Source: Maribacter sp. MJ134 (GTDB taxonomy: Bacteria; Bacteroidota; Bacteroidia; Flavobacteriales; Flavobacteriaceae). Taken from it: 64,000 nucleotides of DNA. Positions 12,337 through 62,959 of this stretch are shown here, piece after piece (position 1 is the stretch's first letter; every line of letters starts with the position of its first letter). The notes below the pieces were generated by a model that saw only the letters and a program-made list of their open reading frames with translations, was not told where the DNA came from and searched no databases. The translations under genes and the position numbers were made by a program. The stretch lies in the NCBI RefSeq assembly GCF_003970695.1, contig NZ_CP034570.1:2356001-2420000 (forward strand). The letters run 5' to 3'.

Positions 12337-12674
12337 TTCAATTAGTATTACGGATGAAACTAAATTATTAAAAGTTGCTAATACGAACCATGCTAGGGGC
12401 TTTGAAGATAGCTAAAATCTGTAAGTCTAAAATACTCGTCCCAATTACAGGACTTGTATCTTCATGCTATCCCTTATTTCTTAAAATGTCTCCTATACCA
12501 TTTACATAAGACGCACGACTAGCTTCTAATCTAAAGTAGTAAACCTTAATTGATGTTTTAAAGAATCTTTTTAGAACAAAGAATACATCGTTATTTTCCG
12601 CTATGTCAACCATATAGTACAGGATACCCTACCCCTTTCAAAACTGTATTTTAGTCCGTGAGGGATTATAGACA
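12337..12674. other. Divergent intergenic region, 338 bp
   Basis: AT-rich spacer between the minus-strand yiaK unit and the plus-strand GH106 operon. It contains the tandem-hexamer promoter at 12610-12654. I see no clear promoter box for yiaK and no RNA gene. Confidence 0.7.
12610..12654 (+). promoter_or_regulatory. Tandem-hexamer promoter A, GH106 operon
   Basis: CCATAT (12610-12615), AGTA, CAGGAT (12620-12625), then 21 bp to the -7 box TATTTTAG (12647-12654), 20 bp before the ATG at 12675. The two hexamers are 10 bp apart, one helical turn. The same arrangement with the same 21-bp spacing recurs at four other promoters in this window. No TTG -33 box is seen, which fits activator-dependent transcription. 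Confidence 0.72.
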
Positions 12675-15600
12675 ATGAAAAAGCTAATTTTAGGTGTTCT
12701 CACAGTGTTGACGGTGATACTTTTTTCCTGTGAGGAGAAAGGTGAAAATACCCGGAACCTTGCCCAAGAATTTCTAAATCCACCGGCTAGCGCCAAGCCC
12801 AAGACGTGGTTCCATGCCATGAGCGGCAACATGACCAAAGAAGGACTCACCAAAGATTTGGAATCCATGGCCGAGGTTGGCTTGGGTGGGTTATTATTAT
12901 TCAACGTTACCCAAGGCATTCCCAATGGACCTATAAAATACAACTCGGCCGAGCATCATGAAATGATTGACCACGCAGCCAAAGAGGCAGAACGCCTTGG
13001 TCTTTCCTTTGGCGTACATAATTGTGATGGTTGGTCTGCTAGTGGTGGCCCCTGGGTGTTACCCGAAGAATCCATGAAAATGGTGGTTTGGAGCGAAACG
13101 GTTACAGAAGGAGGAAACATCAGTCTCAACTTAAAAGAACCTACAAAAAGAGAGGGGTTTTACAAGGATATTGCTGTAATCGCCTACCCCGCCTTAGATT
13201 CAGAAATAGACGACACTACAAATACCCCGGTAATTACAGCATCTGATACATCGTTGGATACAGCCCTTATTTCTGATGGAAAAATAGATGCCGAATCTAC
13301 TCTAAACGCGAAGAAAGACGAATCCCTATGGGTACAGTTTACCTACCAAAAGCCCAAAACCTTACGGTCCGCCAAAATCATTTTCAACGACCGTCATAGT
13401 ACGGCTATGCTGCAAATCAGTGCGGATGGCATCAATTTTATTGATATACGAAATCTTTTTAAGGTGAGGACGGGAAAAGGAGAATGGGCCATCAACGACC
13501 ATTTTGAGGGTGTTACTTCAAAATATTTTCGCTTAAAGTTTAATCGTACCACCACCTTAAAAGAAGTACAGCTGACCGCAAATTATTTTATAAACAACCC
13601 TTTGGGCAGAACGGCAATCGCCAGAACCGAGGACAAGAATTTAGCTGATATAGGTTCTCCGGATAGCACGATGCTTATAGACCCTTGGCAAATAAGAAAT
13701 CTTTCGAATCAGATGGATGCCAAAGGTGTCCTAAAAACGGAACTGCCAAGTGGCAACTGGACCATAATGCGCTTTGGTTATACCTCCACGGGTGCATTTA
13801 ACAATCCCGCCTCTGACGAAGGTCGTGGCTTGGAAGTGGATAAATTAAGCAGGCCGCCTTTTAAGAAACATTACGATGCCTTTATTAAAAAGGTGGTGAA
13901 CAATGCTAGTCCTGTAGCGCCTAATGCTTTGCAATATATTGAGATTGACAGTTATGAAATGGGAGGCCAAAACTGGACTGATGGTTTTGCCAAAATCTTT
14001 GAGAACGAAAAAGACTATGATTTTATTGAAATGCTTCCCTTAGTAGCGGGAAGATTTATTGGCAATCCTGAAATATCAGAGGCCGTACTATCCGATTACA
14101 GAAAGGTAATTTCCGACCTCATGACCAAAAACTATTTTGAGTATTTTACGGAGCTGTGCAATGCAGACGGACTTAAAAGTTACATAGAACCTTATGGTTT
14201 TGGGCCTTTAAACGATTTGGATATTGGCGGCGTAACCGATATTCCCATGGGGGAATTCTGGATGAACCGCCCTATCACCCAAACCGAATCTGCCGTGTCT
14301 TCTGCCCATATTTATGGCAAACCTGTTATATCTGCAGAATCCTTCACCTCTAACCCTACCATCAACTGGAAAGGTCATCCCGCCATGGCAAAAACTTCTG
14401 GAGACTTAGGGTGGACCTACGGCATCAACGAATTCATGTTCCACAGATTTGCGCACCAGGCCAATCCTAATGTTGCCCCAGGAATGACCATGAACCGTTG
14501 GGGTTTTCATTTGGACAGAACCCAAACCTGGTGGGAAAATGCCGGAAAAGCATGGTTTGACTACATTGCACGTGGCTCTCATATGCTCAGGCAAGGGGTT
14601 CCAGTATCGGATGTATTGATATACGTGGGAGAAGGAGCGCCAAATTCTGCCTATTACAGAGACGATATTTCCCCGGCCATACCAAAAAGCATCAATTTTG
14701 ACAACGTAAATACCGATGTACTTTTAAATAGAATCGCCATTGAAGAAAAGGAATTGGTACTTCCCGAAGGCACATCGTATAAAATACTGCTGCTCCAAAA
14801 TAGCAAAACGATTTCCCTGAAAACCGCAAAACGCATACTGGCCATTGCCAAAAGCGGGGTTCCTGTTTACGGAGAACTTCCTGAAAAATTAGCAGGCTAT
14901 AAAAAAACGGAGGAAGACCTGAAAGCTTTTGACCAAGTAGTGTCCGAATTAAAAACTTTGATAAAATCGGTTACCGAGTGGAAAAGGGTTTTGACAGACC
15001 AGAACATTAGCCCAGATATGCGGTTTCTCAATCAAGAAACTACCGATTACGCACACCGAAAAACCGCTACGGAAGACATCTATTTCTTTTTTAATCCAGA
15101 TACCTTAGAAACGAAAACATTCCATGCCCAGTTCCGAGTAGGCCATAAAATTCCGGAACTATGGAATCCAATGGACGGGAGCATCACCAAACAAGGTCAG
15201 TTTATAACAGAAAATGGCAACACTACTACGCAGATTCGGTTAGATGCAGGAGCATCTATTTTTGTGGTGTTTCGGGAGGATGCCGATACCGTTCATAGCG
15301 CAAAAGAACACAAGGAGCATCTCAACCTCAGCTTATCCAAGGAAAATATCCTTAAAGCAACTGCGACGGAAAACGGCAGTTATTCCGTTCCATTGACCTC
15401 TGGGGGAAGTTGGGATTTTTCGGTGACCGATATCCCGGCGTCCCAAGATATTTCTACCATTTGGGAAGTAACCTTCAACCAAGAGCAAGGGTATGGCGGT
15501 ACTGTACCATTTGACTCCTTGGTAGATTGGAGCGCTCACCCTAAAGATTCCATCAACTATTACAGCGGAACCGCGAGCTATAGCAAAACGATTGTGCTGA

Positions 15601-16025
15601 ATGAAGAAGAAACAAAAAAAGGCACCAAAATACAACTGGATTTGGGCCAGGTTTATATTGTAGGGGAAGTGCTTGTTAACGGTCAACCGGTTGCCGTTTC
15701 GTGGATGCCGCCTTTTAGAGTAGACATTACAGATTACGTAAAAAGTGGCGAGAATCAAATTGAAATTCTGCTCACCAACCAATGGAGTAATAGACTGATC
15801 GGTGATGAACGCTACCCCGCAAATGATGGAGGGTACAAATTAGGACCGCATCGCGCCACCGATTTGACCATGCCGACATGGTACACCAACAATGAACCAA
15901 GGCCTAAAGGAAAAAGAACCACCTTTACTACAGCTCCTTTTTATAAAGTAAACGATGTACTGATGCCATCTGGATTATTAGGCCCGGTGCAACTGCATTT
16001 TTCTAAAACTATAACCCGTAAATAA
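12675..16025 (+). CDS. GH106 alpha-L-rhamnosidase (lipoprotein)
   Basis: 1116 residues, in the usual size range for GH106. The lipoprotein signal ends at VILFSC (Cys19). The start of the catalytic part, FLNPPASAKPKTWFHAMSG and NMTKEGLTKDLESMAEVGLGG, then VHNCDGWSASGGPWV-PEESMK, is characteristic of GH106 (PF17132). About residues 190-300 hold an inserted beta-sandwich. The C-terminus (about 960-1110: LDLGQVYIVGEVLVNG, then PPFRVDIT and SGLLGPV) is a GH2-like jelly roll. These enzymes remove terminal alpha-L-rhamnose in the periplasm or at the surface. First gene of the 12.7-26.0 kb operon, preceded by promoter A; its TAA overlaps the next ATG (TAATG). Confidence 0.93.
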   Translation: MKKLILGVLTVLTVILFSCEEKGENTRNLAQEFLNPPASAKPKTWFHAMSGNMTKEGLTKDLESMAEVGLGGLLLFNVTQGIPNGPIKYNSAEHHEMIDHAAKEAERLGLSFGVHNCDGWSASGGPWVLPEESMKMVVWSETVTEGGNISLNLKEPTKREGFYKDIAVIAYPALDSEIDDTTNTPVITASDTSLDTALISDGKIDAESTLNAKKDESLWVQFTYQKPKTLRSAKIIFNDRHSTAMLQISADGINFIDIRNLFKVRTGKGEWAINDHFEGVTSKYFRLKFNRTTTLKEVQLTANYFINNPLGRTAIARTEDKNLADIGSPDSTMLIDPWQIRNLSNQMDAKGVLKTELPSGNWTIMRFGYTSTGAFNNPASDEGRGLEVDKLSRPPFKKHYDAFIKKVVNNASPVAPNALQYIEIDSYEMGGQNWTDGFAKIFENEKDYDFIEMLPLVAGRFIGNPEISEAVLSDYRKVISDLMTKNYFEYFTELCNADGLKSYIEPYGFGPLNDLDIGGVTDIPMGEFWMNRPITQTESAVSSAHIYGKPVISAESFTSNPTINWKGHPAMAKTSGDLGWTYGINEFMFHRFAHQANPNVAPGMTMNRWGFHLDRTQTWWENAGKAWFDYIARGSHMLRQGVPVSDVLIYVGEGAPNSAYYRDDISPAIPKSINFDNVNTDVLLNRIAIEEKELVLPEGTSYKILLLQNSKTISLKTAKRILAIAKSGVPVYGELPEKLAGYKKTEEDLKAFDQVVSELKTLIKSVTEWKRVLTDQNISPDMRFLNQETTDYAHRKTATEDIYFFFNPDTLETKTFHAQFRVGHKIPELWNPMDGSITKQGQFITENGNTTTQIRLDAGASIFVVFREDADTVHSAKEHKEHLNLSLSKENILKATATENGSYSVPLTSGGSWDFSVTDIPASQDISTIWEVTFNQEQGYGGTVPFDSLVDWSAHPKDSINYYSGTASYSKTIVLNEEETKKGTKIQLDLGQVYIVGEVLVNGQPVAVSWMPPFRVDITDYVKSGENQIEILLTNQWSNRLIGDERYPANDGGYKLGPHRATDLTMPTWYTNNEPRPKGKRTTFTTAPFYKVNDVLMPSGLLGPVQLHFSKTITRK

Positions 16026-18889
16026 TGACTCACAATCGCATAAAATCAAATAAAAATTACTTTTTGCGCTGCATTGGAATTCTACTATTAGCAATCCTCG
16101 GTTCATGTACTGAGGAAAAACCAGGGCCTAACCTATCTTTTGAGCAGCTCTTATGTAATCAGAAAGAAACTCCTAAATCCATTGAAACTGAGAATCCCGT
16201 TTTTTCGTGGATTGTTGACGCCGAAGGGTTCAATAAATCACAATCCGCCTATCATATTTTAGTGGCATCTTCTGAAGAAAAATTAAACGAGAACGATGCC
16301 GATGTTTGGAATTCCAACAAAGTACAAAGCACAACATCTACATTTGTACCCTTTGCCGGCACTAACCTTAAAGCCATGCAGCGTTATTTTTGGAAAGTGA
16401 AAATTTGGGATGAAAACAACAAGGCATCCAACTGGTCCACTACCCAGCATTTTGAAATGGGCTTAATGAATCTTGACAATTGGGGTAACGCTAAATGGAT
16501 TACCCTAACAGAAGATAAAAGGATCTCGCCACACCGTTACAGGGAATACAAAACCGGTAAAATGGCAAAACCCATTATGGTAGAAGGTTTTGCGGCCAGT
16601 TATTTCAGAAAGGAAATAACCGTAGAAAAAGAAGTAGAAAAAGTACAGGCCTACATCTGTGGACTAGGATACTACGAACTCTATTTGAACGGGGAAAAAG
16701 TAGGCGACCACGTGCTGGACCCTGCACCATCCAATTATTACAAGCAGGCCTACTATGTCACCTATGACATAACAGAGGCTATTAAAGAGGATAAAAATGC
16801 CTTTGGTATTCTTTTGGGCAATGGTTTTTACGGACAGAATATCTCTTGGAAAAATGACCCTGAATCTGAAAAGGACTTGGCATACGGCCCACCTACCGTA
16901 AAGCTACTGGTAAAGACCACCTATACCGATGGTACAACTTCTGATTTTTATACGGATAACACATGGAAAGAAAATACCGGTCCCATCGTATTCAACAACA
17001 TCTACGGTGGCGATACCTATGATGCCCGCCATGAAATAAATGGATGGAACACCGTGGGCTACATAGATGATGATTGGGGAACAGCTACGGAAACAGTACC
17101 AAACATTACCAAAGTGAGTGCACAGCAAATACCGCCCATTAAAAAACTAAAAACCTTGGAGCCGCAAAAAGTGTTTAAAGGTTCGGATGGAGAATGGATA
17201 GTTGATTTTGGACAGAACATCGCTGGTTGGGTCAAACTAAATATCCAAGAAAAAGAGGGACAGCTTATAGAGATTACAAATACAGAGGCCTTATTGACGG
17301 ACGGTAGTGATATTTTTCCCGGGTCTACGGGAGGCGGTGCCAACGGTATGCCCCAAATATACAAGTACATCGCTAAAAGCTCAGAGCCGGAATCTTGGGA
17401 ACCAAAATTCAGCTATCATGGTTTTAGGTACGCCAAGATAAAAGGCATTTCCAAAAAGCCGGATGCCAATATGATTAAAGCGGTGCTTGTTGCTACCGAT
17501 ATTGACAACACCGGAAGTTTTTCCTCCTCGGACGATATCCTGAACCAAATGCACAGCATTAGTAAATGGACCATAGAAGATAACCTTCATGGTATTCCGG
17601 AGGATTGCCCCCATCGCGAAAAATGTGGTTGGTTGGGTGATGCCCATGCCTTTGCCGAGTATGCATTGTACAACTACGACATGTACGATTTCTATAAAAA
17701 ATACATGGAAGATATCCGTACCCAAATGCGGCCCACCAAAGGGCATAACGACCCGGATATCAAATTTCAGGTGCCTACCATGATTGCCCCCGGTAAGCGG
17801 ACCTCTACCTATGCAAAAATAGATTGGGGCGTTGCCACCATGTACCTGCCTTGGTACAACTATTTGTTTTATGGAGATGATGCCATCATAAAGGAGTACT
17901 ACCCGGAAATGAAAGAACTGACCAATTTTTATTTGAATTTTAAAGGTGAGAATGGGATTATGCAAGACGGCATGGGCGATTGGTGTCCGCCAAGTTGGGA
18001 CCGAAGGTTAAATCCCGGTGCCATGGAAACTGACCCGATTATTTCCGCCAATGCCTATTTCTTTGATATTTTAGGTGTTATGGAAACTTTTGCAAAAATG
18101 AATAATGACAGCACCTACGAAGCTCAAATGAAAATGGAAAAAGAAGCTTTAAAAAAAGCCTTCAACAAAGCATATTTAAAGCAGAAAGATGGCACCAAAT
18201 ATAAATGGTACCTGAGTCAGACCGCAACGGTACAAGCCTTACAATTTGGTATGGTGCCAGAAGGGGAGATTGAGAATGTAGTCAATGGATTAGTGCACGA
18301 TATTGTTGAAGTAAAAGGAGGGCATCATGCCACGGGGATACATGGAAATAGATATATCTACACCGTGTTGGCAAAGCACGGTAAAGCAGATTTGGCCCAT
18401 GCTATATTAACAACGCCGGACTTCCCCAGTCAGGCCTACCAAATGAACTCCGGATTCACCACATGGCCAGAACGTCAATTTGAGTGGGAAAAGATGGAAG
18501 GACCCACAAATTCTTTAAACCACCCCATGCATAGTGGTTTTGCAGCATATTTTTTTGAGACCCTAGGCGGTGTGCGACCCATTGCGGAACAACCGGGTTT
18601 TAAAGAATTTACGGTAAACCCAGTATTTCCTAGTCATCTCAAGAATAATGACATCAGCATTAGCACGCCTTACGGCACCATTAGTAACGAATGGACAAAA
18701 AATGGCACCGATTTTGAAATGAACCTTAAAGTACCCTTTAATACAATGGCGCGAGTATTCATTGATGAAAAACAAAAAGAGACCTTGAAAATTAATAGCG
18801 AGGACTGGAAAACATTTGCTGTTGGTGATGCAACGAACAATACCATACCCCTAGGTTCGGGAACCTATACCTTAAGTTATAAAAAATGA
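16025..18889 (+). CDS. GH78 alpha-L-rhamnosidase (lipoprotein)
   Basis: 954 residues with a lipoprotein signal (AILGSC). Domain order fits GH78: N-terminal Fn3-like domain (about 35-145), rhamnose-binding jelly roll (GLGYYELYLNGEKVGDHVLDP, about 210-330), second beta domain, (alpha/alpha)6 barrel from about 500, then a C-terminal beta domain. The barrel has the hallmark D527-C-P-H-R-E532-K-C-G-W with its conserved acidic residues, and later NHPMHSGFAAYFFETLGGV. It hydrolyses alpha-L-rhamnosides. Translation is coupled on both sides: 1-bp overlap with GH106 and 4-bp ATGA overlap with the next gene. Having GH78 and GH106 together suggests two kinds of rhamnose linkage. Confidence 0.95.
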   Translation: MTHNRIKSNKNYFLRCIGILLLAILGSCTEEKPGPNLSFEQLLCNQKETPKSIETENPVFSWIVDAEGFNKSQSAYHILVASSEEKLNENDADVWNSNKVQSTTSTFVPFAGTNLKAMQRYFWKVKIWDENNKASNWSTTQHFEMGLMNLDNWGNAKWITLTEDKRISPHRYREYKTGKMAKPIMVEGFAASYFRKEITVEKEVEKVQAYICGLGYYELYLNGEKVGDHVLDPAPSNYYKQAYYVTYDITEAIKEDKNAFGILLGNGFYGQNISWKNDPESEKDLAYGPPTVKLLVKTTYTDGTTSDFYTDNTWKENTGPIVFNNIYGGDTYDARHEINGWNTVGYIDDDWGTATETVPNITKVSAQQIPPIKKLKTLEPQKVFKGSDGEWIVDFGQNIAGWVKLNIQEKEGQLIEITNTEALLTDGSDIFPGSTGGGANGMPQIYKYIAKSSEPESWEPKFSYHGFRYAKIKGISKKPDANMIKAVLVATDIDNTGSFSSSDDILNQMHSISKWTIEDNLHGIPEDCPHREKCGWLGDAHAFAEYALYNYDMYDFYKKYMEDIRTQMRPTKGHNDPDIKFQVPTMIAPGKRTSTYAKIDWGVATMYLPWYNYLFYGDDAIIKEYYPEMKELTNFYLNFKGENGIMQDGMGDWCPPSWDRRLNPGAMETDPIISANAYFFDILGVMETFAKMNNDSTYEAQMKMEKEALKKAFNKAYLKQKDGTKYKWYLSQTATVQALQFGMVPEGEIENVVNGLVHDIVEVKGGHHATGIHGNRYIYTVLAKHGKADLAHAILTTPDFPSQAYQMNSGFTTWPERQFEWEKMEGPTNSLNHPMHSGFAAYFFETLGGVRPIAEQPGFKEFTVNPVFPSHLKNNDISISTPYGTISNEWTKNGTDFEMNLKVPFNTMARVFIDEKQKETLKINSEDWKTFAVGDATNNTIPLGSGTYTLSYKK

Positions 18890-19659: not shown

Positions 19660-19705
19660 AAAAGTATGGTAAAATCCTTAAAACAATTTTTAGAATTAAA
19701 CATTT

Positions 19706-21970: not shown

Positions 21971-21991
21971 AAACGCACTAAAACGAAAACG

Positions 21992-23101: not shown

Positions 23102-23102
23102 A

Positions 23103-24344: not shown

Positions 24345-24386
24345 AATACCTAACTTTAAGATTACAAATTTGATTGCTGCTATACT

Positions 24387-25685: not shown

Positions 25686-25710
25686 CCCTGAGAATAGTAT
25701 CTAAAAAACT

Positions 25711-26097: not shown

Positions 26098-26142
26098 CAG
26101 TATAGTACAGGATGTGCTATTCCTAAAATAAGGCTAGTATTA
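26098..26142 (+). promoter_or_regulatory. Tandem-hexamer promoter B, acid-sugar operon
   Basis: CAGTAT (26098-26103), AGTA, CAGGAT (26108-26113), 21 bp, then -7-like TAGTATTA (26135-26142). The start codon is at 26204, giving a leader of about 55 nt. An ACCAGTAT at 26073-26080 repeats the first half 23 bp further upstream and could be an extra half-site. Confidence 0.7.
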
Positions 26143-26203: not shown

Positions 26204-27265
26204 ATGGGTAAACAATACAAAATCGCAGTAGTTAACGGTGACGGCATAGGAAACGAGATTGTTCCGGCAGGGGTATCGGTATTAAGTGCGGTTGCCAAAA
26301 AATATAATTTTGACATTACAACAGAATATTTTTCTTGGGGTGCAGGACATTATGTGAAACATGGGGAATTTATGCCGAAAGACGGTCTGGAAACTCTAAA
26401 AAATTTCGACGCCATTTACTTTGGTGCCGTGGGACTTCCCGAAGTGGACGACACCCTACCTGCAAAGGACTATACTTTTAAAGTACGAACGGAATTGGAA
26501 CAATATGTAAACTACAGACCTGTAAAATTATTTTCAGGGGTGCAGAGTCCATTGCGTGACAAAACAGAAAAAGATATTGATTTTGTCATTCTACGGGAAA
26601 ACAATGAAGGGGAGTTTGTACAAAATGGTAAAATATTCTATCCGGACACACCCAATGGTTGCGCAGTAGATACCAGTATGGTTACCCGTTTGGGTGTAGA
26701 ACGCATAGCGCATTATGCCTTTAAATTGGCACGGAAAAGAAGAAAAAAGGTAACCAACGTCACCAAATCCAACACCCTAATTTATACCTTGGGATTTTGG
26801 GACAAAGTGATTGCCGAAGTAGCAGCCGAATATCCCGATGTAGAATACGGTAAAATGTATATTGATAATGCCTCCGCTAGTTTTGTACTGAAACCGGAAT
26901 TTTTCGACGTCATCGTTACTACCAATATGATGGGCGATATACTATCAGACCTAGGAGGCGCCATCATGGGAAGTTTAGGTTTGGGCGGTAGTGGAAACAT
27001 CAATCCAGAAGGAGATTTCCCCTCCATGTTCGAACCTATTCACGGTTCTGCACCGGATATTGCAGGGCAGAACATCGCAAACCCCATTGGCCAAATTTGG
27101 TCGGCCGCAATTATGTTAGAACATTTGGGGGAGCAGGAAGCTGCCGATACCATTGTGGCGGGCATTGAATATGCCACCGCGCAAGGAAACCTCACCAAAG
27201 ACCTCAAAGGCAACGCTTCCACTTCGGAAATTGCGGAACGCATTGTTGGCTTTATCAATTCATAG
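26204..27265 (+). CDS. Isopropylmalate/tartrate-dehydrogenase family beta-decarboxylating dehydrogenase
   Basis: 353 residues, cytoplasmic. NGDGIGNEIVPAG, then FGAVGLPEVDD, RENNEGEF and DNASASFVLKPEFFDVIVTTN-MGDILSD, and the cofactor loop HGSAPDIAGQNIANP, define the isocitrate/isopropylmalate dehydrogenase superfamily. Details (QYVNYRPVKLFSGVQSPL) look closer to tartrate/D-malate dehydrogenase (TtuC/DmlA) than to LeuB. These enzymes oxidise a 2-hydroxyacid and usually lose CO2. It heads a five-gene operon with a DUF1537 acid-sugar kinase, so the substrate may be a four-carbon acid or its phosphate. That is inference. Confidence 0.87.
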   Translation: MGKQYKIAVVNGDGIGNEIVPAGVSVLSAVAKKYNFDITTEYFSWGAGHYVKHGEFMPKDGLETLKNFDAIYFGAVGLPEVDDTLPAKDYTFKVRTELEQYVNYRPVKLFSGVQSPLRDKTEKDIDFVILRENNEGEFVQNGKIFYPDTPNGCAVDTSMVTRLGVERIAHYAFKLARKRRKKVTNVTKSNTLIYTLGFWDKVIAEVAAEYPDVEYGKMYIDNASASFVLKPEFFDVIVTTNMMGDILSDLGGAIMGSLGLGGSGNINPEGDFPSMFEPIHGSAPDIAGQNIANPIGQIWSAAIMLEHLGEQEAADTIVAGIEYATAQGNLTKDLKGNASTSEIAERIVGFINS

Positions 27266-27270
27266 TTTAG

Positions 27271-37128: not shown

Positions 37129-37173
37129 CAATACTAATAGAATTTCTACTTGTTACCATCCTGTACTATACTG
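37129..37173 (-). promoter_or_regulatory. Tandem-hexamer promoter C, DUF1549/DUF1501/NHL operon
   Basis: On the minus strand CAGTAT (37173-37168), AGTA, CAGGAT (37163-37158), 21 bp, then TAGTATTG (37136-37129), close to TAnnTTTG. The ATG is at 37063, giving a leader of about 60 nt. The Kelch gene diverges from 37290, so the element could also affect it, but orientation and spacing favour the minus-strand operon. Confidence 0.72.
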
Positions 37174-49233: not shown

Positions 49234-49257
49234 TTTAGACCCTATAAAATCGAAGAA

Positions 49258-52200
49258 TTAGTTTAAATCGAAGAATTTTTCTGAGAATTTCTCAATATAA
49301 GCTGTAGGACTCAAACCAAACTTTTTATGAAAACACTTGCTGAAATATTTTGGGTTTTTGAAACCTACTTGATATCCTATTTCTGAAATATTCAGATTAC
49401 CTTGCTCTAGTAACTGCACAGCACGTTTCATTCTAATTTCTTGAATAAAATCATTGGGAGTAAAATTTGTCCATGCTTTTATTTTAGTAAATAACAAGGT
49501 CCTGCTCACACCCAATTCCGTGCTAAAAGTAATAATATCAAATTGATCGTTAGAAATATTATCCTCAACAATCTGTAATGCCTTTTTGAGTAATTGCTCG
49601 TCAATTGAAGAAATTACTATCTCGTTAGGAGTAAGACTTTGCTCTTCACCAAATTTTGTGCGCAAGCGTTTATTAGAATCTATTAAGTTCTTAATACGTA
49701 ATTTGAATTCCTTAATATTAAAAGGTTTACTTATATAATCATCGGCACCGCTTTCTAAGCCTTCAAACTTATATAAAAGCGAGGTCCTTGAGGTAAGCAG
49801 TATTATAGGTATATGACTGGTCTTGATGTTTTCCTTGATTTTTGCGCACAGTTCGGTCCCGACCATCTCGGGCATTATCACATCCGATACGATTAAGGTA
49901 GGAACGTACTTCATCGCCTTCTTTAAAGCTTCACGACCATCACCAGCTTCCATAACGTTATAAGTATCCTTCAAAATATCTTTAATGAAATTACGTAACG
50001 GCAAATTATCCTCTACTATTAGCACAAGGTCTTTCTCCTTATCCATGGCTAATTGTTCCGAACTTAAAAGAATTTCCTTAGACGGTGTATGTGATAATTG
50101 GGAAGTATACAAGGCTACATCGTCACTAAATTTAAAATCCTCTATGATTTCTTCCTTAGCAATATGTTCATTACCCAATTTTAACGCAACCCTAAACGTA
50201 CTTCCAGTTCTTGAGTCACTTAAAACAGATATCTCTCCTTTGTGCAATTCGATGATTTTTTTTGCGATGGCAAGTCCAATACCGGTTCCTTTATTTTGAG
50301 AGGTATCCCCTTTTATATAATCGGGAATTTCAAAAAATCGTTCAAACACCTTATCCTGATATTTGGCGGGAATCCCTGGCCCGGAATCAACAATATCAAT
50401 CACGACCTGGTTGTGACTCCTTTTTACCTTAATAGCTATTTTTCCGCCTGCGGGGGTATATTTAAAAGCGTTGGAAATAAGGTTATAGAAGACTTGTTCC
50501 AATTTAGGGCGATCATAATACACTAAAACCTGTTCTTCGTCGGTTTCAAAAGTATATTCATAATAATTGCCTTTAGCAAACTCTGAAAAGGACAGGAAAA
50601 TTTCTTTCAAGAATTTTATAAAATTCCCTTCGGCAGATTCTAGCACATATTTTTTATGTTCAAGTTTCCTGAAATCCATAAGCCTGTTGATGAGTTGCAG
50701 CAGGTGATTAGCGTTACTTTCTATGACCAGTAGTTTCTTATACACCATACTGCTACCTTTATAATCTGCTAACAATTGTTGTAACGGACCCGTTATTAAA
50801 GTTAAGGGCGTTCTAAATTCATGGGAGACGTTAGTGAAAAATCTAAGTTTTGCATCGGTAATATCCTGATTTCTTTCATTTTCTAAATGCTCTAGCTGCA
50901 ACTTGTGTTTTAATTTTGTCCTTGAACGTATTATACTTATGATGCCAAGAACCACAGCTAGTATAGTAAAAATGTACAGCGCAAACGCCCATTTACTGAA
51001 CCACGGCGCAGGATGTACCGTAATTTTCAAGGTAGTTGGCTGCGGATTCCATAACTTATCGTTATTTGCCCCCATGACCTCAAAAACATAATTTCCCGGC
51101 CTCTGAATCGTATAGTTTGCACTGGCTTGGTCCGTCAAGGTCCAATTCTCCTCTAAGCCAACCATACGATATCGATACTGATTACTGTTGGGATTTATAA
51201 AATTGGGCATGGTAAAATCAATGGAAAAATTAGCGTTATCATAGTCAAGCGCTATCTCTTTCGTAAAGGGCATGCTCTGGGACAAAACACCGTTTTCATC
51301 ACCGACCAGTACAGATTGGTTCTTTACTTTTAAGTCCGTAAGCAGTACTTGGGGGTTGAAATTATTACTTACAATTGTCTTGGAGTCAAAAAAAGAAACT
51401 CCTTCCGGTCCGCCAAAATATAGTTTTGAACTTCCTTGTTTAAGTGCCGCGCCACTGCTAAATTCATTTCCCACCAAACCATCTCGTTCCGTGTACACTA
51501 CAAAAGAGTCGTCCGCCACACCATACTTTAACAGCCCTTGGTTACTACTCATCCAAAGTCTATTGTTATCATCTTCTAATATGGCATAGATAGACGTTAT
51601 TTCTCGGGTGGTCTTTATAGGCACTTGATTGAATGTTTTACCATCAAAGCGAAACAAACCCTTGGCTCTAATACCTACCCATATGGTACCTCTTGAATCC
51701 TGAAAAATAGTTAGTATGTCATCCCCGGAACCCGTTTCTTTATCGTAGAAAAAACGTGTAAGCCGCTCTTCGGAATAACCGCCATTTGCATATTTTAATA
51801 GATTCAATCCCCCTTGGGTACCTACCCAAATATTAGACCCTTTGTCTACCATTAAGCTTCTAATCCTATTACTGGATAGGCCTTTCAATTCTTCTTTAGA
51901 ATTATCAAAAATCACGTACTTCCTACTTTCAACATCATATTTTATTAGGCCTAGACCAAATGTTCCGAACCAAATATCATTGTGTAGACCTTTTTTTATG
52001 GTATAGGTTCCTGAATTACTTAAAAGAGTACTTAAATCATCCGTCAAAATATCCGTGACAAAACGATTTCTTGCTAAATCATAGATTTTCACTCCTTTAT
52101 TAAAAGTGCCGATCCATAACTTTTGATTATCGAAGAGCAATGATTTGATATTATCGCTACGTAAAAATTCGTTGTTTTCTGTATTGATATACTGCATACC

Positions 52201-53367
52201 ATTTGTCTTTTTATTAAAGATGGTTATTCCACCGCCTTCGGTACCTAAGTAGAGGTTACCTTCGGTATCATCCACTATAGAACTAACTACCTTATGCCCT
52301 AACCGTTTCTTACCGGAGGACTCCTTATAATTTAGAAAGTTGGTGTTTGAAGCATCCCAAATATCAACGCCGCCATAATACGAGCCCACCCAAATGGACC
52401 CTTTTTTATCCTTGAAAATAGATTTTACGTAGTTATGGCTTAAACTATTTTCTTCATTGGGCTCATTTTTTATTGTCCGTACGAGATTCTCATTAGCTAT
52501 AAGGTCTATCCCATCCGAACTACCTACCCATAACAAACCATTATCGGCAGCAGCAACAGCTCTGATATCTTCATCCGTGTTGATAATATCCCTGGGAAGA
52601 AAACGTTCCGAGATCAAATCAAATTTAAGGAGACCCATATTCTTTGTACCTACACAAAGTGTGTTCTCATCACAAACGGTAATTGTTTGAACAAAGAGAT
52701 TTTTATCCTCGTTTTTTGGTTGATAGGTTTTGAACTCAAACGTATTATTATCGGCAGAGACCACCTTGCAAAAGCCTTCTGAAGTTCCAATCCAAATTGT
52801 CCCGTTATTCGCTTGGGTGATACTAAGGATATAATCTGACGGTAAGGTATTGTGCTGATCGTTCGCATTTGCATAAACGGTAGTGAAACTATCCTTCTCT
52901 TTGTTATAAATAGAAAGTCCATTTGAGGTGCCAATCCAAATTTCACCATCAGATAGTTCTTCAATAGCCCAAATGGTATTGTTACTTAAAGATGTCTTCT
53001 CATTAAAATGGTAATATCGCTCAAACGAATTATGGGCTGGGTCATATTTGTTCAAACCGTTATAGGTACCGATCCATATATAACCTTCCGTATCCTGTTT
53101 AATGGAAAGAATGTCACTATTACTGATGGAGGTACTATCATCCACAACGGTTCTATACACATTAAAACCTGTACCGTCATATAGGTTCAGGCCATCGCGC
53201 GTACCCAGCCACATACGCCCTAGATTATCCTGCTCAATGGCGATAACAGAACTTTGTGAGAGTCCATCCGAAGTGTTCAAGTGTTTAAACTGATAGGTAC
53301 TAGGTAAATTTTGTCCAAGACAAAAAATACAATTAAGCATTATAAATATGACGAACCTAGTTTTCAT
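49258..53367 (-). CDS. Hybrid two-component system sensor-regulator (HTCS)
   Basis: 1369 residues from the ATG at 53367, which opens the signal peptide (FVIFIMLNCIFCLGQ); an ATG 27 bp earlier is less likely. Order: about 14 Reg_prop propeller blades (I-W-I/V-G-T motifs, about 20-690), Y_Y_Y domain (about 700-780), membrane helix (about 790-815), histidine kinase with S-H849-E-F-R-T-P-L and ATPase motifs (NLISNAFKYTPAGG, GTGIGLAIAKKI), receiver with phospho-acceptor D1162 (VSDVIMP), and C-terminal AraC HTH (about 1275-1369). It senses a periplasmic oligosaccharide and activates the adjacent susCD unit. All parts look intact. Confidence 0.96.
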   Translation of the reverse strand: MKTRFVIFIMLNCIFCLGQNLPSTYQFKHLNTSDGLSQSSVIAIEQDNLGRMWLGTRDGLNLYDGTGFNVYRTVVDDSTSISNSDILSIKQDTEGYIWIGTYNGLNKYDPAHNSFERYYHFNEKTSLSNNTIWAIEELSDGEIWIGTSNGLSIYNKEKDSFTTVYANANDQHNTLPSDYILSITQANNGTIWIGTSEGFCKVVSADNNTFEFKTYQPKNEDKNLFVQTITVCDENTLCVGTKNMGLLKFDLISERFLPRDIINTDEDIRAVAAADNGLLWVGSSDGIDLIANENLVRTIKNEPNEENSLSHNYVKSIFKDKKGSIWVGSYYGGVDIWDASNTNFLNYKESSGKKRLGHKVVSSIVDDTEGNLYLGTEGGGITIFNKKTNGMQYINTENNEFLRSDNIKSLLFDNQKLWIGTFNKGVKIYDLARNRFVTDILTDDLSTLLSNSGTYTIKKGLHNDIWFGTFGLGLIKYDVESRKYVIFDNSKEELKGLSSNRIRSLMVDKGSNIWVGTQGGLNLLKYANGGYSEERLTRFFYDKETGSGDDILTIFQDSRGTIWVGIRAKGLFRFDGKTFNQVPIKTTREITSIYAILEDDNNRLWMSSNQGLLKYGVADDSFVVYTERDGLVGNEFSSGAALKQGSSKLYFGGPEGVSFFDSKTIVSNNFNPQVLLTDLKVKNQSVLVGDENGVLSQSMPFTKEIALDYDNANFSIDFTMPNFINPNSNQYRYRMVGLEENWTLTDQASANYTIQRPGNYVFEVMGANNDKLWNPQPTTLKITVHPAPWFSKWAFALYIFTILAVVLGIISIIRSRTKLKHKLQLEHLENERNQDITDAKLRFFTNVSHEFRTPLTLITGPLQQLLADYKGSSMVYKKLLVIESNANHLLQLINRLMDFRKLEHKKYVLESAEGNFIKFLKEIFLSFSEFAKGNYYEYTFETDEEQVLVYYDRPKLEQVFYNLISNAFKYTPAGGKIAIKVKRSHNQVVIDIVDSGPGIPAKYQDKVFERFFEIPDYIKGDTSQNKGTGIGLAIAKKIIELHKGEISVLSDSRTGSTFRVALKLGNEHIAKEEIIEDFKFSDDVALYTSQLSHTPSKEILLSSEQLAMDKEKDLVLIVEDNLPLRNFIKDILKDTYNVMEAGDGREALKKAMKYVPTLIVSDVIMPEMVGTELCAKIKENIKTSHIPIILLTSRTSLLYKFEGLESGADDYISKPFNIKEFKLRIKNLIDSNKRLRTKFGEEQSLTPNEIVISSIDEQLLKKALQIVEDNISNDQFDIITFSTELGVSRTLLFTKIKAWTNFTPNDFIQEIRMKRAVQLLEQGNLNISEIGYQVGFKNPKYFSKCFHKKFGLSPTAYIEKFSEKFFDLN

Positions 53368-53716
53368 GAAATCGAAAAATATTACTTCAAGCAATTTTAG
53401 ACCATACTTCGAGGATGAACGATTTACTTAATAGTCCTCTTACCGAGCTTTGAGCAGGTTGTACCGCTACAAAGAAAGAACATCCATTAAATATAGCTAT
53501 AAAAACAGTACAGATTAATGCCAAGACAAGATACTACAGGATACGTATAACACAGGTATGAAGTAGTTTTAGAACTAATGAAATGGACGTTTTTACCCCT
53601 TATTTGCACTATTGTTTGAACGAGCCATTAGTTCTTTTAAATTAAAAGCTTGAAATTTGAGTAAATAGCAGTTATACTAATATTTCTGCTCACTAGCTTT
53701 AAAATAACAACTAAAA
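53368..53716. other. Divergent intergenic region, 349 bp
   Basis: AT-rich spacer between the HTCS gene (minus) and the uronate operon (plus). It contains promoter D (53527-53571), a likely long leader (about 140 nt) for the plus-strand operon, and on the minus strand a weak TAAAATTGC box near 53398 that could serve the HTCS gene. Within the leader an AT-rich palindrome CTTTTAAATTAAAAG is visible near 53635-53649. No RNA gene recognised. Confidence 0.6.
53527..53571 (+). promoter_or_regulatory. Tandem-hexamer promoter D, uronate operon
   Basis: CAAGAT (53527-53532), ACTA, CAGGAT (53537-53542), 21 bp, then -7-like TAGTTTTA (53564-53571). A further CAGGTA at 53553 may be a third half-site. The operon start codon is at 53717, so the leader is about 140 nt, longer than at the other four promoters. 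Confidence 0.68.
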
Positions 53717-54547: not shown

Positions 54548-54557
54548 TAAGAGTATA

Positions 54558-55994: not shown

Positions 55995-56006
55995 AATAAA
56001 TATAAA

Positions 56007-57200: not shown

Positions 57201-57241
57201 CAAATTTACGAGTCATTAGAAAAGATACAACGTTTACCTTT

Positions 57242-57255
57242 CGAGGCAAGCCTCG
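57242..57255 (+). other. Small GC-rich hairpin between uxuA and kduI
   Basis: CGAGGC-AA-GCCTCG is a perfect palindromic stem in the 109-bp gap between uxuA and kduI, the largest gap inside this operon. It could be an attenuator or mRNA-stabilising element; no T-run follows directly. Confidence 0.4.
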
Positions 57256-57309
57256 GAATAGAAAAATCTCGATTATCGAATCAATATTAATCATAAAATA
57301 AACTATACA

Positions 57310-58149: not shown

Positions 58150-58153
58150 TTTC

Positions 58154-58948
58154 ATGAGTATAGAACTTTTTAACCTCAGCGGAAAAATAGCCTTGGTAAC
58201 CGGCAGTACGCACGGCCTGGGGATGGCTATGGCCAAAGGACTTGGTAAAGCGGGAGCTACCATAGTCGTTAACGGAAATTCATCACAACAAAAAATTGAT
58301 GATGCTATTAAAATGTATGAAAGTGAAGGCATCAATGCAATAGGCTATAAATTCAACGTTACCGACGAAGCCCAAGTCATTGACGCCATCAATAAGATTC
58401 AAAGCGAAGTGGGGACTATTGATATTCTGGTCAACAATGCCGGTATTATCAAAAGAACACCTTTGGAAGAGATGGAGGTCGCAGATTTTAAACAGGTAAT
58501 CGACGTAGATTTAGTGAGTCCGTTTATTGTTTCCAAACATGTTGTCAAAGGTATGATTGCTCGTAAACAAGGAAAAATCATCAATATTTGTTCTATGATG
58601 AGCGAGTTGGGACGTAATACGGTGGGAGCCTATGCGGCCGCCAAAGGCGGACTAAAAATGCTTACACAGAACATGGCAACCGAGTGGGCCAAACACAATA
58701 TACAGACCAACGGTATTGGCCCAGGCTACTTTGCTACATCGCAAACCGCCCCTATACGTGTGGACGGTCATCCGTTCAATGAATTTATCATCAATAGAAC
58801 ACCAGCGGCAAAATGGGGAGATCCGGACGATTTAGCAGGAGCTGCAATTTTCTTGGCTTCTCGGGCAAGTGATTTTGTCAACGGCCATGTCGTCTATGTG
58901 GACGGAGGTATTTTGGCCACTATAGGAAAACCATCGAACGAAAAATAA
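58154..58948 (+). CDS. kduD: 2-keto-3-deoxygluconate-forming SDR dehydrogenase
   Basis: 264 residues, short-chain dehydrogenase. T-G-S-T-H-G-L-G is the cofactor loop; catalytic residues lie in NICSMMSELG and Y-A-A-A-K; the end has GHVVYVDGG. It would reduce 2,5-diketo-3-deoxygluconate to 2-keto-3-deoxygluconate. Gluconate 5-dehydrogenase (IdnO) has a near-identical family profile, but coupling to kduI makes KduD more likely. Confidence 0.9.
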   Translation: MSIELFNLSGKIALVTGSTHGLGMAMAKGLGKAGATIVVNGNSSQQKIDDAIKMYESEGINAIGYKFNVTDEAQVIDAINKIQSEVGTIDILVNNAGIIKRTPLEEMEVADFKQVIDVDLVSPFIVSKHVVKGMIARKQGKIINICSMMSELGRNTVGAYAAAKGGLKMLTQNMATEWAKHNIQTNGIGPGYFATSQTAPIRVDGHPFNEFIINRTPAAKWGDPDDLAGAAIFLASRASDFVNGHVVYVDGGILATIGKPSNEK

Positions 58949-58953
58949 GTATC

Positions 58954-60132
58954 ATGAGAACAGTCAAGCTTTTAGTATCTGTATATGTCACTTTACTACT
59001 CTTCTCTTGCGAAGAGCAGACACAACCCAACCAACAGGTTGTAGTGAAGAATACCTTGAATAGCGACCGCTCTTTTGAAACCGTTTCCGTGGATTTGGAA
59101 GCTATACCACAAGAGAACCAAAAAGGCAACATTGTCATTTTGGATGCCGAGACAAAGGCCGAAATCGTTTCACAACAAATAGATACTGATGGAGATGGTA
59201 CCATGGATGAAATTTTATTTCAACCAGAAATTGCTGCCAATAGTGAAAAAGTGTATGAAATCAGCTTTTCCGAAGGTATGGTACCTAAGGACAGTATTCC
59301 CGCTTGCTATTCAAGATTTGTGCCTGAGCGTACGGACGATTACGCATGGGAGAACAATCGCGTTGCATTTAGAACCTACGGACCCGTTGCACAAAAAATG
59401 ATTGAGGATGGTATCAAAGGAGGCACCCTTTCTAGCGGAATAGATGCTTGGCTAAAACGTGTAGATTATCCTATCATTAATAAATGGTATAAAAAAGAAT
59501 TAGAAACCGATGGCAGTTATCATAAGGATGATGGTGAAGGTTTGGATAATTTTCATGTGGGCATCAGTAGAGGTGTGGGTGGTATTGCTAAAAAGATAGA
59601 TACCAGTTACTATATTTCTAAAAACTTCATCTCTTGGCAAACGTTGAGTACAGGACCCATACGAACCAGTTTTATTTTAATCTATTCGAATTGGGATGCA
59701 GCAGGCAACAATATATCCGAAGAAAAAATGATTTCCTTGGATTACGGTCAAAATTTATCTCGTTTTGAAATTACGTTAAAAGGAACGGATACCATTTCGG
59801 CCGGATTAACACTACATAAAAAAGAAGGGGAGATTGGAGTAAATGAGGATCAGGGATGGATTAGCTATTGGGAACCCCATTTTGACTCCGAACTAGGTAC
59901 AGGTATCGTAGTACCTAATGATAGGATGGTGGGTTATGAACATTACGAAACGACTAGAAAAGACGAAAGCAATCTTTTTGCCCATATCAAAACCAAAGAC
60001 AGTAAGGCAGTTTATTATGCTGGTTTTGGTTGGAAAAAAAGCAATCAATTTACTTCTAAAGAGGAATGGGAGAAGTATTTGGCAACATTCGCGGAAAACC
60101 TTAAAAATCCGTTACAAGTCACCGTGAAATAA
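58954..60132 (+). CDS. DUF4861 lipoprotein
   Basis: 392 residues with a lipoprotein signal (VTLLLFSC, Cys19). The overall pattern (VVVKNTLNSDRSFETVSVDL, then ENNRVAFRTYGPVAQ, YHKDDGEGLDNFHVGISRGVGG, then GWISYWEPHFDSELGTGIVVP) fits DUF4861. Conserved His, Asp, Glu, Trp and Arg in these segments could form an active site on a beta-sandwich. DUF4861 genes recur in uronate-degrading clusters, but I know of no firmly assigned activity. It lies 6 bp after kduD and 8 bp before the TRAP genes, so it may act on a uronate oligomer before import. Confidence 0.82.
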   Translation: MRTVKLLVSVYVTLLLFSCEEQTQPNQQVVVKNTLNSDRSFETVSVDLEAIPQENQKGNIVILDAETKAEIVSQQIDTDGDGTMDEILFQPEIAANSEKVYEISFSEGMVPKDSIPACYSRFVPERTDDYAWENNRVAFRTYGPVAQKMIEDGIKGGTLSSGIDAWLKRVDYPIINKWYKKELETDGSYHKDDGEGLDNFHVGISRGVGGIAKKIDTSYYISKNFISWQTLSTGPIRTSFILIYSNWDAAGNNISEEKMISLDYGQNLSRFEITLKGTDTISAGLTLHKKEGEIGVNEDQGWISYWEPHFDSELGTGIVVPNDRMVGYEHYETTRKDESNLFAHIKTKDSKAVYYAGFGWKKSNQFTSKEEWEKYLATFAENLKNPLQVTVK

Positions 60133-60139
60133 ACGTACT

Positions 60140-61117
60140 ATGAAACTAAAAAGACACGTATTTCTGATTCTTATTGTTGCTCTAATGGCGTCCTGTGCAA
60201 AAACGGACGACACCAAAACACTTCGCCTAGGTCATGGTTTGGATGTGAGCCATAGTGTTCATAAAGCCATGGTGAAAATGGGAGAAGACTTGGACAAGTT
60301 ATCCGACGGAAAGTTAAAACTGGAAATCTATCCAAGTCAACAATTGGGAACGGAACGACAGTGTTTAGAATTATTGCAAATTGGAAGCCTAGATATGACC
60401 AAGGTTTCCGTAGGAGTTTTAGAGAACTTTGCACCAAAAATGAAGGTATTGGGACTACCATTTCTGTTTCGGGATAGGGAACATTCTTTTACCGTTCTCG
60501 ATGGCCCCATAGGACAGCAACTACTTAATGAAGGGGAACAATATTGGCTAAAAGGATTAGGGTATTACGATGCCGGAAGTCGTAGTTTTTACACTAAGGA
60601 TAAACCTGTAAATACCCCGGAAGACCTAGAGGGACAGAAAATACGTGTCATGGAGAGTGTTACCGCCATGGATATGGTAAGTGGTTTGGGTGGCTCCCCT
60701 ACCCCAATATCTTGGGGTGAACTGTACACAGCATTACAACAAGGCGTTGTAGATGGGGCAGAGAACAATCCTCCGAGTTTTTACCTGTCCAGACATTACG
60801 AGGTAGCTAAATATTACACCTTGGATGAGCATACCGTACTCCCCGACGTTCTTTTGGCAGGAACCTATTTATGGGATAAACTAACTCCAGAAGAACAAGG
60901 CTGGTTAAAGCAGGCCGTGGAAACATCTGTAGTGTACCAACGTAAACTTTGGTTAGAAGCAGAGAATGAAGCCTTGGAAGCTGTTAAAGAAGCTGGCGTA
61001 CAAATCATAAGACCAGATAAAACATTGTTCTCGGACAAAATAAAAGACTCCTTTGACAAGTACAAAGAGGACAAAGAATTTTACCAACTGATACAAGATA
61101 TTCAAGCAACCAACTAA
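60140..61117 (+). CDS. dctP: TRAP transporter substrate-binding lipoprotein (DctP type)
   Basis: 325 residues with a lipoprotein signal (ALMASC, Cys19). DctP-family landmarks: LRLGHGLDVSHSVHKA, then KLEIYPSQQLGTERQCLELLQIGSLD, GQKIRVMES with the conserved carboxylate-binding Arg, and GVVDGAENNPPSFYLSRHYEVAKYYTLDEH. It binds an acidic solute and presents it to DctQM. Context with kduI/kduD/uxuA suggests a uronate or keto-deoxy acid. Four base pairs or so separate the linked genes, indicating one operon. Confidence 0.95.
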   Translation: MKLKRHVFLILIVALMASCAKTDDTKTLRLGHGLDVSHSVHKAMVKMGEDLDKLSDGKLKLEIYPSQQLGTERQCLELLQIGSLDMTKVSVGVLENFAPKMKVLGLPFLFRDREHSFTVLDGPIGQQLLNEGEQYWLKGLGYYDAGSRSFYTKDKPVNTPEDLEGQKIRVMESVTAMDMVSGLGGSPTPISWGELYTALQQGVVDGAENNPPSFYLSRHYEVAKYYTLDEHTVLPDVLLAGTYLWDKLTPEEQGWLKQAVETSVVYQRKLWLEAENEALEAVKEAGVQIIRPDKTLFSDKIKDSFDKYKEDKEFYQLIQDIQATN

Positions 61118-61128
61118 ACAACCAAGGT

Positions 61129-61590
61129 ATGCAACTACGAAAAACCATTGATAAGATACTTGCCAATTTTCTGGTAATCATTATGGCCATTATGGTACTT
61201 AATGTGCTTTGGCAGGTAGCCAGTCGTTTTATTCTAGGCTCACCCAGTTCCTTTACGGATGAATTGGCGCGTTATCTAATGATTTGGGTCGGTATTTTAG
61301 GTGCTGCCTATATATCGGGCAGAAATATGCACGTGGCCATTGATGTACTACCAACCCGCTTGAGCCCACCTATGCAGAAACGATTGATCTTAATCGTACG
61401 CATATTGATAATTCTGTTCTGCCTACTGGCCATGGTCATTGGTGGTTCTAGACTGGTCTATATTACCTATGTTCTGGGTCAAAATTCCCCTGCCCTACAA
61501 GTTCCGTTAGCTGTCGTATACATGGTCATCCCCATTAGTGGTCTACTTATTATATACTATAAACTTTCGGACATTCTCAAAAAACAATAA
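61129..61590 (+). CDS. dctQ: TRAP transporter small permease (DctQ type)
   Basis: 153 residues with four hydrophobic segments (about 14-33, 50-66, 90-112, 127-147), the standard DctQ topology. L-W-Q-V-A-S-R-F and SSFTDELARYLMIWVGILGAA are family motifs. It pairs with DctM, starting 3 bp after its stop, to form the membrane complex. Confidence 0.94.
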   Translation: MQLRKTIDKILANFLVIIMAIMVLNVLWQVASRFILGSPSSFTDELARYLMIWVGILGAAYISGRNMHVAIDVLPTRLSPPMQKRLILIVRILIILFCLLAMVIGGSRLVYITYVLGQNSPALQVPLAVVYMVIPISGLLIIYYKLSDILKKQ

Positions 61591-61593
61591 GCC

Positions 61594-62889
61594 ATGGAAT
61601 ACGCACCTATACTAGTATTAGTTATCAGTTTCATATGCCTTTTGGCCATAGGAACGCCCGTTGCTTGGAGCATCGCTATTTCATCGCTATTGACCCTGTT
61701 GGTCAGCATACCTATATTGCCTGCGGCCACTACCGTTTCACAGCGAATAGGCACCGGATTGGATAGCTTTGCCCTCTTGGCCATACCCTTATTTATTCTA
61801 TCGGGAGAACTAATGAACAAGGGAGGTATTGCCCATCGACTTATTGCCTTCGCAAAAACCCTAGTAGGTGCATTACCAGGAGGTTTAGCTTTAATTAACA
61901 TCATTTCGGCTATGCTTATGGGCGCCATAGCAGGTTCTGCTATGGCCGCTGCTTCCGCAATGGGGAGTATACTTGGCCCAGAAATGGAAAAAGAAGGATA
62001 TTCTAGGGAATTCGGTGCCGCCGTAAATATAACTGCGGCAACTACAGGTCTTGTCATACCCCCTAGTAATGTATTGATCGTTTATTCCTTGGCCAGTGGT
62101 GGCGCATCTATAGCCGCTCTTTTCTTGGCAGGCTATATACCGGGAATTTTAACGGGACTCTTTTTAATGATAGTTGCCTCTTTCTGGGCAAAGAAAAAAG
62201 GATATAAAGTTGGGAAACGAAGCACTTTAAAGGCTGTTTTAAAGACTTTCGTGGATGCATTACCTAGCCTATTTATGCTCGTAGTAGTCATTGGAGGTAT
62301 CGTTACAGGAATTTTTACGGCTACAGAAGCCTCTGCCATTGCAGTACTCTACAGTTTTATCTTAGGAATGATATATCGAGAAATAAGCCTTCCTAAAATG
62401 CCTCAGATTCTGTTAGATTCTGCTGGAACAACAGCCATAGTTATGCTCCTCATAGGCGCCTCCATGAGCATGTCTTGGGCACTAAGTTATGAAAACATTC
62501 CACAAGAGATAAGTACAGGTCTTTTAGCCTTAAGCGATAATCCTATTGTCATATTATTGATTATAAACTTACTGTTGCTGTTCGTGGGAATATTTATGGA
62601 TATGACCCCGGCCGTACTCATTTTTACCCCTATTTTTTTACCAGTCGTTACGGCGCTTGGCTTAGACCCCGTTCATTTTGGAATCATTATGGTACTGAAT
62701 CTCTGTATAGGACTCTGCACGCCGCCTGTTGGCTCAGTGCTCTTTGTGGGTGTCGGAATAGCTAAGACCTCTATTGAAAAAGTAGTGAAACCGCTATTGC
62801 CTTTATTTATCGCCATGATTTTTGCATTGTTTTTGGTCACCTATTTTCCAGAGTTGAGTCTGTGGTTGCCAAGACAGTTTGGGTTGTAA
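61594..62889 (+). CDS. dctM: TRAP transporter large permease (DctM type)
   Basis: 431 residues, very hydrophobic, with about 12 membrane segments. Landmarks: IPLFILSGELMNKGGIAHRL, then GAIAGSAMAAASAMG, PPSNVLIVYSLASGG, EASAIAVLYSF, and CTPPVGSVLFVG. It is the sodium-coupled channel subunit of the TRAP importer. It ends the uronate operon, 91 bp before the GMC gene with its own promoter. Confidence 0.96.
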   Translation: MEYAPILVLVISFICLLAIGTPVAWSIAISSLLTLLVSIPILPAATTVSQRIGTGLDSFALLAIPLFILSGELMNKGGIAHRLIAFAKTLVGALPGGLALINIISAMLMGAIAGSAMAAASAMGSILGPEMEKEGYSREFGAAVNITAATTGLVIPPSNVLIVYSLASGGASIAALFLAGYIPGILTGLFLMIVASFWAKKKGYKVGKRSTLKAVLKTFVDALPSLFMLVVVIGGIVTGIFTATEASAIAVLYSFILGMIYREISLPKMPQILLDSAGTTAIVMLLIGASMSMSWALSYENIPQEISTGLLALSDNPIVILLIINLLLLFVGIFMDMTPAVLIFTPIFLPVVTALGLDPVHFGIIMVLNLCIGLCTPPVGSVLFVGVGIAKTSIEKVVKPLLPLFIAMIFALFLVTYFPELSLWLPRQFGL

Positions 62890-62914
62890 AGTCTGCTAAG
62901 GAGAACAAGGTACA

Positions 62915-62959
62915 CCTTACACTACAGGACACCCTAAAAGGTTCTAATTTGTACTTTTA
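62915..62959 (+). promoter_or_regulatory. Tandem-hexamer promoter E, GMC oxidoreductase gene
   Basis: CCTTAC (62915-62920), ACTA, CAGGAC (62925-62930), 21 bp, then -7-like TACTTTTA (62952-62959), 21 bp before the ATG. This copy is closest to promoter A, sharing CAGGAY-ACCCTA and nearly the same distance to the start codon. Confidence 0.68.

Follow-up and report, generated by a model that had tools for sequence, protein, structure and literature searches.

A tandem-hexamer promoter element and a candidate GntR-type regulator in a rhamnosidase and sulfatase gene cluster of Maribacter

Five promoters in a 64,000-nucleotide stretch of the Maribacter sp. MJ134 genome (NZ_CP034570.1; Flavobacteriaceae) share an element of two hexamers at a fixed distance from the -7 box. 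This stretch, hereafter the window, covers bases 2356001-2420000 of a genome of 4,016,247 bp; seven-digit coordinates refer to the genome, and shorter ones to the window unless a locus is named. We consider it likely that a GntR-type regulator encoded at 2432716-2433762 has this element as its operator, and that this protein probably activates when rhamnose-bound. The five window sites are part of a set of 13, all of which lie in one 128-kb rhamnosidase and sulfatase cluster. Computed support comes from the sites, their spacing, their confinement to the cluster, the linkage and co-occurrence of the motif with the regulator gene, and a pairing of recognition-helix types with hexamer types.

Thirteen promoters in one cluster

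Genome-wide searches, with the reversed motif pattern as the control for chance, place the element almost wholly in one region. At up to one mismatch, CVGKAYASTACAGGAYR has 14 matches in the genome, 13 of them within a single 128-kb stretch that makes up 3.2% of the sequence (P = 5e-19); the fourteenth lies inside a coding frame and lacks a box. At up to two mismatches there are 36 matches against 27 for the control, so the weaker matches are mostly chance, and of the 22 two-mismatch matches, 16 were inspected, among which the only one outside a long frame (L261) overlaps a known site. The ten-base core ASTACAGGAY, put forward in the original prediction as rare, does occur six times in the window where about 0.5 are expected from the genome background (p about 2e-5), and 46 times genome-wide against 29 for the control. 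Every intergenic core match with a TA at +21 falls between 2306366 and 2433979, and no core match outside the cluster has a box at 21 bp, two matches within open reading frames (ORFs) having the TA alone there. In these searches the same-spacing promoters are confined to one cluster.

A matrix scan of a 184-kb region gave 13 sites of at least 18.8 bits, all outside called ORFs, with the next-best match at 15.9 bits, in a gene; 11 of the 13 sites had served to train the matrix, and the score gap is therefore partly built in. The two sites outside the training set are 2320804 (minus) and 2322296 (plus). The box stands 21 bp from the element at 12 of the 13 sites and 20 bp from it at one (2336792, minus). 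At site 2336909 the mechanically called ORF starts 8 bp past the core start and overlaps the -7 box; its true start codon is probably later than called. This site and the window site at 37173 (minus) also fall in long stop-to-stop frames.

The motif accompanies a GntR-type gene beside a rhamnose operon

The candidate regulator, a protein of 348 aa, is encoded 12.7 kb to the right of the window, which agrees with the earlier statement that the regulator would not be found inside it. Two element sites, 2432601 (minus) and 2433970 (plus), flank the gene, and a homolog search returns its product as the sole match at E <= 1e-30 in its own genome. A GntR winged helix lies at the N-terminus (PF00392, E 3.7e-12, residues 17-80); compared with structures, this domain matches the AraR DNA-binding domain (4egy, E 2.5e-9), and Lmo2241 better (4ham, 6e-13). 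The AlphaFold2 (AF2) model (pLDDT 90) resembles LacI-family folds, and the 50 Foldseek matches listed are LacI-family regulators, ribose-binding proteins or regulators without further name. The sensor-domain profile PF13377 scores 26.2 bits, slightly below its cut-off of 26.5. As modelled, a LacI/periplasmic-binding-like sensor domain stands at the C-terminus, in an AraR-like layout.

The regulator gene adjoins an L-rhamnose catabolic operon; its neighbours encode a RhaD-SDR, a RhaI-like isomerase, a kinase that is weakly rhamnulokinase-like, an L-lactate-dehydrogenase-like protein and an NCS1-like transporter. The RhaD-SDR passes its NCBIfam cut-off; RhaI is a strong match, yet below its own. 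The transporter (L049:5098-6516) is a candidate rhamnose transporter, and its relatives adjoin the regulator in 6 of the 80 other loci described below.

Across 299 genomes of the family, the motif GKAYASTACAGGAY is present in 57 of the 60 with a close homolog of the regulator (best E <= 1e-90, a cut set in the gap from 1e-109 to 1e-84) and in 38 of the 239 others (p = 9e-32). The reversed pattern matches about 38 of the 299 genomes, and most of the 38 motif-only genomes are thus chance. A set of 80 named homologs belongs by genus name to Flavobacteriia, Cytophagia and Saprospiria, the nearest being that of Maribacter huludaoensis at 90% identity. A site of at least 17 bits occurs at 66 of these 80 loci, with 4-7 kb examined at each, and RhaEW or RhaI lies within 3 kb of the regulator gene at 53; sites scoring above 15 bits are present at 24 of 30 family loci. 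Conservation in related genomes, a check proposed at the outset, is seen as a motif that accompanies the GntR homolog, with the 21-bp spacing kept at 109 of 152 sites.

Spacing and promoter architecture

These 152 relatives' sites are those of at least 16.5 bits; they include 20 stretches picked for holding the motif as well as upstream array copies, some genomes stand in two collections, and the coding position of the sites was left out of account. Within this set the 109 good boxes at exactly 21 bp compare with a shuffled mean of 2.2, with 2 at 20 bp, 3 at 22 bp and 0-6 at every other spacing. Of the 43 sites that lack a good box at 21 bp, many are from Flavobacterium, with a weak box that fits 22 bp best. 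As a separate observation, many Flavobacterium species (e.g. at L131, L138 and L140) share one AAGGAY-type site with such a box, which is a possible lineage-specific shift of the spacing rule. A chance origin of the site set is ruled out by the genome-wide counts, the matrix scan, the spacing in relatives and the co-occurrence across genomes.

The fetched loci contain 238 intergenic TAnnTTTG promoters that lack the element, and among these the TTG is most frequent at 22 bp upstream of the TA (17 promoters). In the element promoters, TTG is at the usual -33 place in none of 43; the invariant purine past the second hexamer alone precludes TTG there. From the peak at 22 bp and its absence in element promoters, it follows that the element ends where the -33 begins. 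The -7 box itself resembles what we take to be the ordinary one of the phylum. The class II-like position proposed in the original prediction is thus borne out, with a fixed distance, the -33/-35 region covered and a -33 element that is weak or absent.

Tandem hexamers and the recognition helix

The element most likely consists of head-to-tail hexamers with a 10-bp period, CNGKAY-ASTA-CAGGAY, in keeping with the earlier description of tandem hexamers one helical turn apart. In a matrix-free scan of periods 7-22, the top six period and spacing pairs all have period 10, although the spacing peak is broad; period 10 leads in the loci of both close and distant homologs, which is not so elsewhere in the cluster's own genome. 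Over 128 sites, direct-repeat pairs match at 4.78 of 7 and palindrome pairs at 3.89 of 7. An overlapping odd palindrome, CNGTAY-A-STACNG, tells the other way: its five defining pairs match at 3.84 of 5 over the same 128 sites, an average of 0.77, no lower than for the direct repeat, and so the sites of the CAGGAY class leave the two arrangements undecided. Besides the period scan, two features favour a direct repeat. Extra hexamer copies in 10-bp register occur at four loci (L133, L151, L163 and L172), rare as they are by a strict rule (2 of 109 sites with a copy at -10), and in the CAGAAC class base -3 and base +7 are both A at 3 distinct loci. A 5-bp sub-period is visible too (ACAGT ACAGT ACAGG).

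The four loci carry arrays of three or four hexamers, and in three of them the box stands 21 bp past the last pair; the L172 array extends to the end of its locus. Three of them (L151:6114-6149, L163:5125-5160 and L133:6441-6466), with three to four head-to-tail hexamers at 10-bp period, lie upstream of susC-like genes and suggest cooperative binding by several regulator molecules.

The hexamer varies with the recognition helix. Where the residues after SRDT(V/I) are EKAY, CAGGAY is found at 70 distinct loci and no site at 19; a sister group with V[KR]AY has CAGAAY at 3 loci and none at 1; and a third group with [LIM]xA[FY] has TRGTAG at 30 loci and none at 4. The locus of a single EKGY protein has no site. 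The three helix types pair with the three hexamer types with zero crossovers and 12 untypable loci, a result to be read with the helix groups being clades, the motif models being built partly from the same loci and independent events being few. In the sister clade with LMAF-type helices (L202-L231), which is present in 47 of 199 family genomes at E <= 1e-80, AAACTAGTAGGTACTAGTAGGTTT-like repeats, direct and partly palindromic, adjoin the gene, and the box spacing is mostly 19-21.

Activation, repression and other readings

A class II activator requires a fixed spacing and a missing -33 contact, and a repressor needs no fixed distance, from which we infer activation. In such a mechanism the GntR/LacI-hybrid protein would bind both head-to-tail hexamers one helical turn apart, with the promoter-proximal one abutting the -33 position and a normal -7 box 21 bp on. 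The gene neighbourhood points to rhamnose or a catabolite as the effector; the rhamnose-bound protein would then act as a class II-like activator in place of the missing -33 contact, turning on 13 promoters of one cluster for a rhamnose-rich sulfated polysaccharide.

Several observations weigh against this account. No site above threshold is present at 14 of the 80 named loci and 6 of the 30 family loci, and 43 of the 152 relatives' sites have no good box at 21 bp. TTG does stand near -33 in 1 of 12 own sites and 4 of 109 sites in relatives. Spacing in the TRGTAG class is looser, with 23 of 29 boxes at 19-21 and the others at 17, 18, 22 or 27, and GntR proteins, those of the AraR type included, are known for the most part as repressors that bind palindromes.

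The same GntR-type protein could instead be a repressor that sits over the -33 until rhamnose or a catabolite releases it, like AraR of Bacillus or AusR of Zobellia. This is the alternative that we take most seriously, though we think it unlikely. The element overlaps the -33 position, the looser spacing of the TRGTAG class would suit a repressor, and the divergent region ahead of the regulator gene contains one of the sites; the PDB molecule name of AraR is transcriptional repressor, and a review describes the flavobacterial GntR protein AusR as repressing alginate genes. Repressor sites tolerate shifts, yet the 21 bp are kept at 12 of the 13 sites in this cluster and at 109 of the 152 in relatives. 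All 43 element promoters lack the -33 TTG where it would normally stand, so that the naked promoter looks weak, and of the hexamer pairs in three arrays, the promoter-proximal one alone is followed by a box 21 bp on.

AraC proteins typically use class II positions and direct-repeat sites, and the original prediction had guessed at an AraC-family regulator. Binding of the element by such a protein or by a hybrid two-component (HTCS) regulator is very improbable. An HTCS gene is present at 49258-53394, and Bacteroides RhaR is AraC-type in the excerpts available; however, HTCS and AraC-type rhamnose motifs are described there as direct repeats with a period of about 21 bp, not 10, and the HTCS gene and the adjoining susC lack the element. 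The guess is not supported: the motif tracks the GntR-type gene over 299 genomes and its hexamer follows the helix type of that protein. That the hexamers are a promoter element for an alternative sigma factor is scarcely credible: the fixed distance to the -7 box would fit, but that box resembles the ordinary one of the phylum, arrays of 3-4 copies are not sigma-like, and the motif follows the GntR gene.

Sites and genes of the cluster

The five 16-mers of the original prediction are present at their reported positions, all between called ORFs and oriented toward first genes, and each is followed by exactly 21 bp and a -7-like box. The first, CCATAT-AGTA-CAGGAT (12610-12625, plus), has its box TATTTTAG at 12647-12654 and lies upstream of a GH106 gene (12675-16025). 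CAGTAT-AGTA-CAGGAT recurs at 26098-26113 (plus; box TAGTATTA, 26135-26142), upstream of an isocitrate/isopropylmalate-type dehydrogenase gene that begins at 26204, and at 37158-37173 (minus; box TAGTATTG, 37129-37136), upstream of a DUF1549/DUF1553 gene and a DUF1501 gene that run leftward from 37063. CAAGAT-ACTA-CAGGAT at 53527-53542 (plus; box TAGTTTTA, 53564-53571) precedes SDR, sulfatase, UxuA, KduI and TRAP genes from 53717 on, and CCTTAC-ACTA-CAGGAC at 62915-62930 (plus; box TACTTTTA, 62952-62959) precedes the ORF at 62981. Pfam searches covered four of the five first genes; the fifth (62981), a putative GMC oxidoreductase, carries the label of the first reading. The sixth core match, at 59647-59656 (plus), is within a DUF4861 gene and was excluded as a site.

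The consensus forms fit less strictly. CMKKAYASTACAGGAY matches three of the five elements, the left hexamers at 12610 and 53527 deviating, and TAnnWTTR matches four of the five boxes, with TATTTTAG as the deviant. The proposed division into two control circuits has to be revised: the susC and HTCS genes of the window lack the element, but two further susC-type genes of the cluster, at 2309940 and 2434116, have it.

Genes downstream of the 13 sites include sulfatases, two susC-type genes, a sulfatase-GH78 fusion, GH106 and GH78 rhamnosidases, uronate and TRAP genes, DUF1549/DUF1501 genes and the rhamnose operon. The cluster probably acts on an algal polysaccharide that is sulfated and rich in rhamnose and uronate, ulvan for example; an ulvan lyase was neither sought nor identified. 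The fusion (L047:6336-9929) is a predicted sulfatase and GH78 rhamnosidase in a single protein of 1197 aa. Elsewhere in the window, two copies of a sequence, identical over at least 57 bases, lie 1182 bp apart (at about 2582 and 3764), within an ORF of 2042 aa (124-6252) that has a Peptidase_S74 C-terminus.

Discussion

In the sections consulted, AraR types form a minor subfamily of GntR regulators, one that has a LacI-like domain (PMC4494728), and Bacillus subtilis AraR shares with our candidate the N-terminal GntR winged helix, the C-terminal LacI/periplasmic-binding-like domain and a sugar regulon. The system described here differs from that account in its operator, which is probably not just palindromic but a head-to-tail repeat of hexamers with 10-bp period and a constant spacing to the -7 box, in belonging to Bacteroidota and in its rhamnose genes. 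Direct-repeat operators are known among GntR proteins, as the available parts of the sources report for NanR (PMC8012715), FarR, NagQ and the MocR types GabR and TauR (PMC5320631, PMC4494728), and some MocR types are activators; these proteins have other sensor domains and, as far as those parts go, no fixed 21-bp rule, and NanR binds repeats less than half a turn apart and represses (PMC8012715). Compared by description alone, and from partial accounts, AusR of Zobellia galactanivorans is likewise a GntR-family regulator of a flavobacterial polysaccharide system, but a repressor, of alginate genes, and FucR and ManR of Bacteroides (PMC3878776) exemplify GntR control of sugar use in Bacteroidota.

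The consulted sections of a 2013 survey name rhamnose regulators, RhaR/RhaS, of the AraC, LacI and DeoR families and none of the GntR family (PMC3870299). These proteins control rhamnose catabolism and rhamnoside use, and the DeoR-type motifs are 10-11 bp direct repeats, but their DNA-binding families are unrelated to that of our candidate. Our results thus point to a rhamnose regulator from a family outside those named in these sections, tied to the use of a rhamnose-rich sulfated polysaccharide. As the original prediction had supposed, searches of open-access full text yielded no published description of the motif or the regulator, and this is GntR/AraR-type control in a form new to the literature searched.

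Bacteroidota use their own -33/-7 promoters, and activator action on them has, to our knowledge, been little mapped. With 13 near-identical promoters, near-exact spacing and a candidate regulator, the cluster offers a clean model for an activator that might replace the -33 contact. We tentatively suggest a broader rule, in which Bacteroidota-wide GntR/LacI-hybrid activators might read modular head-to-tail 10-bp hexamer arrays through a four-residue helix code and, from a fixed distance to the -7 box, substitute for the missing -33 contact, which would make them an activator class for phylum-specific promoters. The suggested helix-to-hexamer code could predict the targets of relatives. If the broader rule is true, rhamnose, and other sugars in sister clades, would turn on dispersed operons through one geometric rule.

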